A stretch of 21,922 nucleotides of DNA from a virus, in the IMG/VR virus record IMGVR_UViG_3300031787_000944, positions 1 to 21,922 of that record; one strand, 5' to 3'. The notes under the pieces were generated by a model. That model saw only the letters and a program-made list of their open reading frames with translations. It had not been told where the DNA came from and did no database searches. Below are positions 8,081-18,481 of this stretch, piece by piece; the stretch's first letter is position 1, and the number at the start of each line of letters is the position of its first letter. The translations under genes and the position numbers were made by a program.

Positions 8081-8376
8081 ACCAGATCGCCATCGACTGG
8101 GAAGCCAACGCCCGCGAATCCGATCCCTGGACAAGCCACGCAGCAGCTGCGCGCGTGCGCGAATTCGCCAGCGGCCACATCGCCATCATTCTCGACTGCC
8201 TGCGCGAGCACGGGCCTGCTACGGCCGACGAGATCGCCAGTCGGGTTGGGTTGCTGTCGCATCAGGTCAATAAGCGGCTGAGCGATTGCCAGAAGCGCCA
8301 ACTGGCGAGGCCGACGGGATTGTGCCGGTTGTCGGCGAGCAATCGGCTTGAGCGAGTGTGGGAGGTTGTTGCATGA
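8077..8376 (+). CDS. Winged-helix DNA-binding phage protein
   Basis: The 99-residue product has the order known from small phage winged-helix proteins: RESDPWTSHAAAARVREF (13-30), helix HIAIILDCLREHGPATADEI (34-53), recognition helix SHQVNKRLSDCQKRQLARPT (61-80) and wing CRLSASNRLERVWEVV. It lies where lambda has cII, directly after cro with a 4-base overlap, so a regulatory role is plausible, but CII and this fold are not the same family. The ATG overlaps the cro stop and the TGA overlaps the next ATG. Confidence 0.75.
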   Translation: MNQIAIDWEANARESDPWTSHAAAARVREFASGHIAIILDCLREHGPATADEIASRVGLLSHQVNKRLSDCQKRQLARPTGLCRLSASNRLERVWEVVA

Positions 8377-9569
8377 GCAGTCTTGTCATAGACCCCGAGT
8401 TCAAAGCGCTGATTCCGCCGCTGCGACCCGATGAGCGTGCCGAGCTGGAGTTGAGCATTGCATTCAGTGGGTGTCGCGACCCGCTCACGGTGTGGGGCGA
8501 TGTTCTTGTGGACGGACACAACCGCCACGAAATCTGCACACGGCTGGGGGTTCCGTTTGCTGTTGTGCAGATTCAGTTCAACGACCGCCTCGATGCGTTT
8601 ATCTGGATTCGCAAAAATCAACTGACGCGCAGAAACCTAACGGACGACCAGCGCGCCATGAATTTTGAAGGCCTGCGGCGGCTTGAGAGTGAGAAGCTCA
8701 GGCGGGCGCGGGCCAAGGCGGGGGGGCAGCAGGGTGGGCGCGGGCGCGCAGCGGATAGCTTGTCGCACACTGTGTGCGACAAGCTATTTCAAGCTGACGC
8801 CACAGACGCAAAAGCATCAGAGAAAACACCCGGGCCGCGATCAAAGCCCGCCAAAGAACAAAAGCGTGACACACGCAATGAAGCTGCAAAGGCAGCAAAT
8901 CTGCCTCGGCGAAAACTTTCCAAAGCCGCACTCGTCGTTGATGCCCGTCCAGACCTAGCCGACCAGGTGGAGCGGGGTGAAATCAAACTGGCCGACGCCG
9001 TTCGCCAGATCAAGCGCGCCGAAGTAATCGAAAAGCTAGAAAGCGTCGAGGCGCGCGAGCAAAAAGAGCTGGCAGGCGAGTACGACGTGATCGTTATTGA
9101 CCCGCCATGGCCGATGCAGAAGATTGAGCGGGACGAGCGCCCGAATCAGTCGCAGTTTGACTACCCCGTAATGCAGGAAACCGAGCTGGCGGCGATGACG
9201 ATGCCGGCCGCTCGTGACTGCCATATGTGGCTCTGGACGACGCACAAGTTCTTGCCGATGGCGTTGCGGCTTCTGGACGCCTGGGGGTTCAAATACGTTT
9301 GTACGTTCGTATGGCACAAGCCCGGCGGGTTCCAGCCAATCGGGCTGCCGCAATACAACTGCGAATTCGCGCTGTACGCGCGGAAAGGATCGCCAAAGTT
9401 CATAGACACCAAAGCATTCCCTGTTTGCTTTGAGGCGTCTCGAGGTGCGCATAGCGAGAAACCCGAAGAGTTATACGACGTGGTGCGCCGGGTCACTGCC
9501 GGTAGGCGCATCGATATATTCAACCGCAGAGCGATTGACCAGTTCGACGTGTGGGGGAAAGAGGCATGA
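8373..9569 (+). CDS. ParB-N domain fused to MT-A70 adenine methyltransferase
   Basis: The 398-residue protein joins two modules. Residues about 10-90 are a ParB/sulfiredoxin-like N-domain (DPLTVWGDVLVDGHNRHEIC at 36-55, then IRKNQLTRRNLTDDQRA). Residues about 168-215 (AAKAANLPRRKLSKAALVVD and the 'ARPDLADQVERGEIKLADAV' segment) look like the helical DNA-binding part that follows ParB-N in phage proteins. Residues 235-398 are an MT-A70 N6-adenine methyltransferase with DPPW at 243-246, WLWTTHKFLP, and SEKPEELYDVVRRV with DIFNRR. It probably methylates phage DNA at adenine, perhaps guided by the ParB part. ATG 8373 overlaps the preceding stop. The linker (111-168) is rich in Gly, Ala and Lys and is encoded partly by a perfect palindrome. 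Confidence 0.88.
   Translation: MSSLVIDPEFKALIPPLRPDERAELELSIAFSGCRDPLTVWGDVLVDGHNRHEICTRLGVPFAVVQIQFNDRLDAFIWIRKNQLTRRNLTDDQRAMNFEGLRRLESEKLRRARAKAGGQQGGRGRAADSLSHTVCDKLFQADATDAKASEKTPGPRSKPAKEQKRDTRNEAAKAANLPRRKLSKAALVVDARPDLADQVERGEIKLADAVRQIKRAEVIEKLESVEAREQKELAGEYDVIVIDPPWPMQKIERDERPNQSQFDYPVMQETELAAMTMPAARDCHMWLWTTHKFLPMALRLLDAWGFKYVCTFVWHKPGGFQPIGLPQYNCEFALYARKGSPKFIDTKAFPVCFEASRGAHSEKPEELYDVVRRVTAGRRIDIFNRRAIDQFDVWGKEA
8755..8787. repeat. Perfect palindrome with 16-bp arms inside the ParB-MTase linker
   Basis: ATAGCTTGTCGCACAC (8755-8770) is followed by one T and its exact reverse complement (8772-8787). It lies in frame and encodes part of the linker between the ParB-N and HTH/MTase parts. 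No T-run follows, so it is not a terminator. The context allows a binding site for the ParB-like protein or an mRNA hairpin; neither is shown. Confidence 0.85.
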
Positions 9570-17287: not shown

Positions 17288-18481
17288 ATGTCATTGCTGC
17301 TGCTGTTTCAAAGCGCAGCGGCAGCCGGCGCCGCACTTGATGCAAGCGAAAGCGTAAGCGTCACCAGCTCGGCGGCGCTGACAACACAGATCCGGCTTGC
17401 TGCATCGGCGAGCGCCGCAGTCACGGCATCAGCCGCGCTCACGACGCAGATCAGGCTGGCATCAACTGTCAGTGCATCGGCGACCTCGAGCGCGGCGATC
17501 ACGACGGCCGTACGCCTGGCATCAAGCCTGAGCGCATCGGTAACGCAGGCCACTGGGCTCACGTCGGTCATCCGTCTGGCTGCATCGGTCTCGGTATCCG
17601 TCACCTCGACGGCGGCTCTGACCGCACAGATCAGGCTGGCAGCTTCAGCCTCGGCGGCTGTCACAGCGACCTCAGACCTGACGACCAGCACGGCAGGCGC
17701 GGCACTGGCCGCCTCGGTCAATGTGTCGGTATCGCAGGACTCGCTGCTTACGGCACAGACGCGCTTTGCGTCATCGGTTCAGGTAGCCGTCACTGCGACG
17801 GCAGGCCTCACCACACAGATCCCGCTGGCCTCATCGGTCAGCACGACAGCGACAGCATCGGCTGCACTGTCCACGCAGATCCGGCTGGCTGGCTCACAGA
17901 CCGCGTCGGTCACGCAGACCAGCGCACTGACAGCCCCAGGCGCAGGGCTTACCGCATCTGCGTCGGTATCGGTAACGTCCAGCGCGGCACTGACGACAGC
18001 GGCAGGGTTTGCTGCCTCGGCGCAGGCAAGCACCACCGCCTCGGCCGCACTGACCACTGCCGTGCGGCTGGCGGCATCAGCCAGTGTCAGCGGTACCGCA
18101 TCGGCAGGCCTGAGCACAGCGATCCCGCTCAACGGATCAGGATCGGCAACCACAACCGGCAACGCAGCGATCACCACAGGCATTCGCCTGGTGGCATCGA
18201 ACGGCGTGCTGGTGACGGGTGCGGCAGGCCTAAGCACCGGCATCCCACTGGCTGCACAGGCTGCGGTGGCAGTGACTGGCAGCGTCACGCTGACGGTGGT
18301 TACGGCCGTCGCGACGCCGGCGATCCGCACGTTCCGCGTCGCGGCAGATGATCGGGTGTTTATCGTCACAGCCGACCGGCGTGCGTTCACGGTCGAGGAC
18401 ACGCGCACATGGGTCGTGCCGTTTGAGAGCAGACAGTTCACGGTGACAGCGGAGGATCGTTCATTCGCCGTCGCAGCATGA
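17288..18481 (+). CDS. 20-residue-repeat fibre-like protein
   Basis: The 397-residue protein is built of about 16 tandem repeats of exactly 20 residues (consensus LAASASVSVTASAALTTQIR) from about residue 17 to 340; an Ala/Gly insertion shifts the phase near 135-142. It is nearly all Ala, Ser, Thr, Val and Leu with one Arg or Pro per unit. The last 50 residues differ: RTFRVAADDRVFIVTADRRA and SRQFTVTAEDRSFAVAA contain 'R-F-V-A-DR' hairpin repeats known from small phage structural proteins. The N-terminus MSLLLLFQSAAAA is hydrophobic but short. A repeated rod such as a fibre shaft with a C-terminal attachment module is likely. The DNA repeats favour length variation. Confidence 0.6.
   Translation: MSLLLLFQSAAAAGAALDASESVSVTSSAALTTQIRLAASASAAVTASAALTTQIRLASTVSASATSSAAITTAVRLASSLSASVTQATGLTSVIRLAASVSVSVTSTAALTAQIRLAASASAAVTATSDLTTSTAGAALAASVNVSVSQDSLLTAQTRFASSVQVAVTATAGLTTQIPLASSVSTTATASAALSTQIRLAGSQTASVTQTSALTAPGAGLTASASVSVTSSAALTTAAGFAASAQASTTASAALTTAVRLAASASVSGTASAGLSTAIPLNGSGSATTTGNAAITTGIRLVASNGVLVTGAAGLSTGIPLAAQAAVAVTGSVTLTVVTAVATPAIRTFRVAADDRVFIVTADRRAFTVEDTRTWVVPFESRQFTVTAEDRSFAVAA
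17336..18307 (+). repeat. Degenerate 60-bp tandem repeats in coding DNA
   Basis: About 16 units of 60 bp encode the 20-residue repeats. Bases such as CAGATCAGGCTGGCA recur near 17447, 17627 and, as variants, at many unit ends. Units are related but not identical. Recombination between units could change the number of repeats. Confidence 0.8.

Follow-up and report, generated by a model that had tools for sequence, protein, structure and literature searches.

Canonical parS sites are 16 bp long, strongly conserved and present in several chromosomal copies. KorB, Noc and VirB are ParB-like clamps without a role in DNA partition, their CTPase domain and helix-turn-helix (HTH) domain being loaded at a palindromic site. 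A protein can also have its binding sites inside its own gene, as is the case for the ori iterons in the O gene of lambda, which encodes a replication initiator, an unrelated protein. In Bacillus subtilis, parS-359 is a ParB site inside the parB/spo0J coding sequence (PMC4442127). Plasmid ParABS systems, for example those of the Burkholderiales, have element-specific centromeres (PMC5450999). A survey by Kaljevic et al. in 2025 reported fusions of the ParB-CTPase fold with MT-A70 or N6_N4 methyltransferases, which are orphan and enriched in mobile elements, and its authors suggested anti-defence or phage-host roles for them (PMC12704722).

The window analysed here (the whole stretch of 21,922 bp) is an entire IMG/VR viral record. 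In addition to the gene under study it contains an integrase, a LexA-like repressor, a YqaJ-type exonuclease and a terminase-like ORF (the last assigned by our reading of the sequence), which identifies the record as all or part of a temperate phage. The window, which may be a fragment, contains no deviant Walker A motif of a ParA; as it holds no recognisable ParA gene, partition proper is unlikely for this phage. Elsewhere in the window, an ORF at 17288-18481 encodes a protein with a repeated unit (ALTTQIRLAASASAAVT-like) that is ~27 residues long; at the DNA level, Tandem Repeats Finder reports no repeat there.

The AlphaFold2 model of the encoded protein has an ordered ParB-like domain at residues 1-118, a stretch of low confidence at 120-162, an HTH at ~166-200 and an MT-A70 domain at ~232-397 (Table 1). 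This placement agrees with the preliminary description of the locus, in which the palindrome was said to code for the linker between the ParB-N part and the HTH and methyltransferase parts. The sole Pfam match was MT-A70 (residues 237-397), PADLOC returned mainly a type II methyltransferase call, and an NCBIfam search of the protein gave nothing useful. A profile of relatives matched the pNOB8-like ParB-N structure 5k5a (E 2e-8) and Spo0J 1vz0 (E 0.0075), and the profile match to Thermus Spo0J takes in the HTH as well as the CTPase domain. Because METTL3-type chains filled the fold search when the whole protein was used, a separate model of the N-terminal part was made for fold comparison; its leading matches were pNOB8-like ParB-N (Z 11.8), the ParB proteins of M. 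xanthus and C. crescentus, Noc, KorB and PadC (Z 9-11 for ParB, Noc and KorB). The AlphaFold2 model covers both domains of KorB and Noc. The nucleotide-binding motifs (G..R of Box II and R of Box III) are present, with D46, G47, R50, R85 and R86 invariant in A3 and aligning with GERR / R of Spo0J. The protein combines a ParB-CTPase domain with a ParB-type HTH and an MT-A70 methyltransferase, and nucleotide binding is predicted.

Table 1. Features of the ParB-methyltransferase gene and its palindrome (positions in the window).
Feature	Position	Strand	Remarks
ParB-N / HTH / MT-A70 methyltransferase protein, 398 aa	CDS 8373..9569	+	
ParB/Srx (CTPase) fold domain	8376..8729	+	DGHNR (Box II-like), NQLTRRNL (Box III-like); profile and fold matches
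Linker, predicted disordered, contains the palindrome	8733..8861	+	pLDDT <50 across most of residues 120-162
HTH domain	8871..8975	+	Collinear with the parS-binding HTH of Spo0J
MT-A70 adenine methyltransferase domain (DPPW)	9069..9569	+	Pfam PF05063 E 4e-17; METTL3 fold Z ~18
Perfect palindrome, proposed parS-like site	8755..8787	no strand	16-bp arms and 1-nt centre
Palindrome core TTGTCGCACACTGTGTGCGACAA	8760..8782	no strand	Near-identical in L004 and L005

The palindrome reads ATAGCTTGTCGCACAC-T-GTGTGCGACAAGCTAT and was found exactly as first described, i.e. 16/16 arm bases are paired around a single-base centre, and pairing stops outside the arms. It lies in frame within the gene, starting at codon 128 (D S L S H T V C D K L F), and the window has no other strong perfect inverted repeat. 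When up to 3 mismatches were allowed, the window held neither a second copy of the palindrome nor a further match to its core. The early judgement that such a repeat is very unlikely by chance was borne out: base composition leads to an expectation of ~1e-4 repeats with 16-bp arms per window, and the linker repeat score of 15.75 compares with a maximum of 12.75 in 500 synonymous-codon shuffles of the gene. The palindrome is real and far beyond chance.

Phages, plasmids, genomes and viral contigs all served as sources of relatives of the gene. We measured conservation in 121 non-redundant genes from viral and genome contigs, with near-duplicates removed, a set biased to genes caught by the DGHNR and RRNL motifs; in each, the linker was scanned from RRNL+20 to +65 aa and the best inverted repeat was scored. 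The mean score of the best linker repeat was 8.57, whereas synonymous shuffles averaged 4.50 and windows elsewhere in these genes 4.54. Scores of at least 8 were reached in 72/121 linkers (59.5%), in 1.6% of the shuffles and in 1.6% of the windows elsewhere; for scores of at least 11 the corresponding proportions were 24%, 0.04% and 0.3%. Where the best repeat anywhere in the gene scored at least 9 (52 genes), it lay in the linker in 48 cases. The presence of a strong linker repeat in so many homologous genes shows that the palindrome is not restricted to this genome, a case that the preliminary description had named as counter-evidence. A strong palindrome is missing from ~40% of the homologues; only a short or degenerate version is present in several that are ~68% identical to the window protein and in some of the near relatives (L006-L017).

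Pairing of the arms stayed at ~0.9 up to a distance of 12 bp from the centre, then dropped sharply to 0.28 by 15 bp. The letters differ among relatives (e.g. TTGTCAcAAAaTGACAA, TTGTCAGATATCTGACAA, GATCAAAATGATC and TGGAAACTTCCA), and an archaeal example, Methanoculleus virus L4768, has TTTTGGAGAATTCTCCAAAA in the same linker position. The palindrome is kept at the same place in phage, archaeal-virus and plasmid relatives while its letters change. In the closest divergent homologue (L004, 84% amino acid identity) both arms have changed symmetrically relative to the window, altering the peptide on either side (DSL..KLF to ERL..KRS). Close homologues with the same linker peptide but no pairing had been named at the outset as evidence against a function of the palindrome; this homologue instead changes both arms compensatorily, an outcome in favour of such a function. 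The same changes bear on the suggestion that a conserved peptide (e.g. L-S-x-N-D-K) explains the palindrome as its consequence. QNDK, QxSDK and GQNDH do recur, and palindrome centres prefer 3 of the 6 phases, but the peptide is altered by compensatory change, shuffles that preserve it destroy the palindrome and the linker is predicted to be disordered, and we regard this explanation as next to negligible.

The 16 viral records with a match to the site pattern have one site each. Searches of the window, of two whole plasmids and of 22 viral records detected no site outside the linker, the pattern being too strict for the linker site in 6 of the 22; as viral records are mostly fragments, 'single copy' holds per record. 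A mobile palindromic element is unsupported, as the records searched contain no other copies. In the flanks of genes with no linker site, a relocated site was clear in L095 only. In L153 a palindrome with 13-bp arms lies near +64 nt of the ORF, in the N-terminal part and not the linker, and is perhaps a relocated site. A more distant ParB-methyltransferase gene (L127) has a perfect loopless 40-bp palindrome (20-bp arms) at linker +50 aa, and two genes without a strong linker palindrome (L007 and L014) share an imperfect inverted repeat with long arms of 27 bp (GCCCACT...AGTGGGC), which lies upstream of the gene's ORF by 185 bases in L007 and by 102 in L014.

The alternative offered in the preliminary description was an mRNA hairpin that slows translation between the domains, to which control of mRNA decay may be added. 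The strand folds well (z -3.0) and the palindrome sits at a domain boundary, both of which would suit a hairpin. However, the arm pairs in homologues comprised 1121 Watson-Crick, 8 G.T, 27 A.C and 34 other pairs, with G.T:A.C ratios of 2:19 in the inner region, 7:20 in the outer region and 67:161 in the flanks. As G.T, the mismatch compatible with G.U pairing in RNA, is not enriched over A.C, the unit is a DNA palindrome of 26-30 bp and not an mRNA hairpin. Moreover, several plasmid palindromes lie in non-coding DNA after parB; in L095, L247 and L249 the site is 3' of the parB coding part, so that translation of the linker cannot be affected, and in L250 it overlaps the parB stop. These results disfavour the hairpin, which we consider very improbable.

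Comparison of pairs of homologues revealed that similarity of the inner core climbs from 0.46 to 0.90 with HTH identity, whereas outer-arm similarity is 0.41 even when HTH identity exceeds 90%. In partial Mantel tests the core was associated with the HTH (r 0.33, 0/500 permutations) much more than with the N-domain (r 0.10, 17/500 permutations). Core similarity was 0.83 for pairs with a similar HTH and a divergent N-domain but 0.44 for pairs with a similar N-domain and a divergent HTH, and in one homologue (L038) the N-domain is divergent (57%), yet the HTH and the core are the same. The core therefore tracks the HTH rather than the N-domain, as a site recognised by the HTH in a sequence-specific manner would. 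The outer arms pair at 0.93 with their own partner compared with 0.45 when swapped between near-identical proteins (sister genes), and in the Persicobacter plasmids at 1.00 compared with 0.42. Free variation of the outer half-arms at >90% identical HTH is something that a simple sequence-specific site would not predict.

In Bacteroidota plasmids and contigs the family gene comes immediately after parA, and there are often several copies of the palindrome. The linker contains three near-identical copies in L096 and two in each of L237, L238, L244, L245 and L246; L247 and L249 have two palindromes each just downstream of parB, and L248 has one in the linker and one downstream of parB. Scanning of whole plasmids (Emticicia pEMTOL03 and Runella unnamed3) found the palindrome as two linker copies and nowhere else. 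Co-resident plasmids have distinct sites in Emticicia (four plasmids), Runella rosea (three) and Spirosoma oryzicola (three), each set from one strain. In Persicobacter JZB09, 6/7 plasmids read contain a palindrome in the linker, its core being GACAATTTGTC, and four have their own arms; the exception is the pair of co-resident plasmids 10 (L254) and 9 (L256), which have the same palindrome and are ~97-100% identical in the parB region. On the whole, the pattern is what would be expected of a centromere family under incompatibility pressure, and the tandem palindromes in or just after parB (L096, L237, L238, L244-L247 and L249) are candidate plasmid centromeres.

Tandem copies within a plasmid have the same sequence, outer arms included, and this bears on two further explanations. 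If the palindrome served as a DNA secondary structure (a cruciform or single-strand hairpin) in replication or recombination, pairing would matter and sequence would not; the outer arms do vary freely while remaining paired, and G.T is not tolerated, as DNA pairing predicts. Such a structure would not call for identical tandem copies, nor for an inner core that is conserved with the HTH and differs where the HTH differs, and centres of 0-2 nt make poor hairpin loops; we consider it quite improbable. Alternatively, the inner part could be an operator selected for protein binding, with the outer symmetry a by-product of template switching (quasi-palindrome correction) in replication. This explanation agrees with the parS-like reading about the core and would fit an inner part that is conserved and an outer part that is free yet symmetrical. 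It is unlikely, though, given that in unrelated members the symmetry breaks off sharply at a distance of 13-15 bp from the centre and that tandem copies have their outer arms in common.

We consider it probable, on comparison of the homologous genes, that the palindrome, embedded in the gene, serves the encoded protein as a parS-like loading site. A site for the gene's own ParB part had been proposed from the start, and it gains support from the fixed position, the covarying arms and the core that follows the HTH, as well as from the one site per record searched and the tandem copies beside parA in plasmid relatives. The ParB-CTPase domain and HTH, collinear with those of Spo0J, KorB and Noc, also count in favour of a parS-like site, while the homologues without a strong palindrome and the shared site of Persicobacter plasmids 9 and 10 count against it. 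The probable reason for the use of the linker is that no other stretch of the protein is free enough to hold a 30-bp DNA sequence.

According to the parS-like reading, a dimer would bind the palindrome via its two HTHs, and the ParB-CTPase domain would then presumably close as a clamp, like canonical ParB, KorB and Noc, resulting in NTP-dependent loading and spreading. What would follow in the phage is less certain: loading at a single site might bring the attached methyltransferase onto the DNA in cis and thereby lead to preferential methylation of the phage's own genome, and/or the bound protein might be a roadblock that represses its own gene. The likeliest uses in the phage would be autorepression and loading of the methyltransferase on the genome in which its gene resides; methylation control and autoregulation, initially listed as separate roles for the palindrome, may be consequences of the site. 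A self-addressing methyltransferase, i.e. one whose clamp loads only on DNA with its gene, slides and methylates the phage genome in cis, is a tentative and somewhat doubtful extension. If it were true, self-recognition would consist of a fast-diversifying address (the palindrome) and its reader (the HTH) within one gene.

The analysis predicts where the members of a large family of phage ParB-methyltransferase fusions bind, proteins for which roles have so far only been suggested (PMC12704722), and it predicts centromeres for the partition systems of Bacteroidota plasmids. It also offers dozens of natural reader/address pairs in which to study the evolution of ParB-parS specificity, with co-resident plasmids as built-in specificity tests, and a clear case of a coding sequence that stays palindromic at the expense of its peptide.

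The fusions surveyed earlier resemble the window protein in joining a ParB fold to an MT-A70 methyltransferase, although the main text of that survey mentions neither a palindrome (the string 'palindrom' is absent) nor an embedded site (PMC12704722). The closest solved relative of the N-domain is pNOB8-like ParB-N (PDB 5k5a, 5k5d), but the profile match covers only the N-terminal domain and the start of the linker, and pNOB8-like ParB has no methyltransferase. KorB and Noc match the window protein in fold; they and VirB differ from it in lacking a methyltransferase and in having sites spread across other loci. Plasmid ParABS systems are similar in their ParA-ParB operon, repeated palindromic sites and different sites on co-resident replicons (PMC5450999). 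They differ in that most of the sites described here lie in the linker of parB, and in that no parA is seen in the phage members, which possess a methyltransferase. We found no published description of a diversifying, linker-fixed site in the open-access papers searched. The likeness to parS-359 is that a ParB site, predicted in our case, lies within the parB coding sequence; compared with parS-359 and canonical parS, the palindrome here is longer (26-33 bp), is fixed in the linker between CTPase domain and HTH and diversifies among relatives. A parS inside parB was already known, and it is the fast-diversifying parS-like site fixed in the linker that is, as far as we could find, new.
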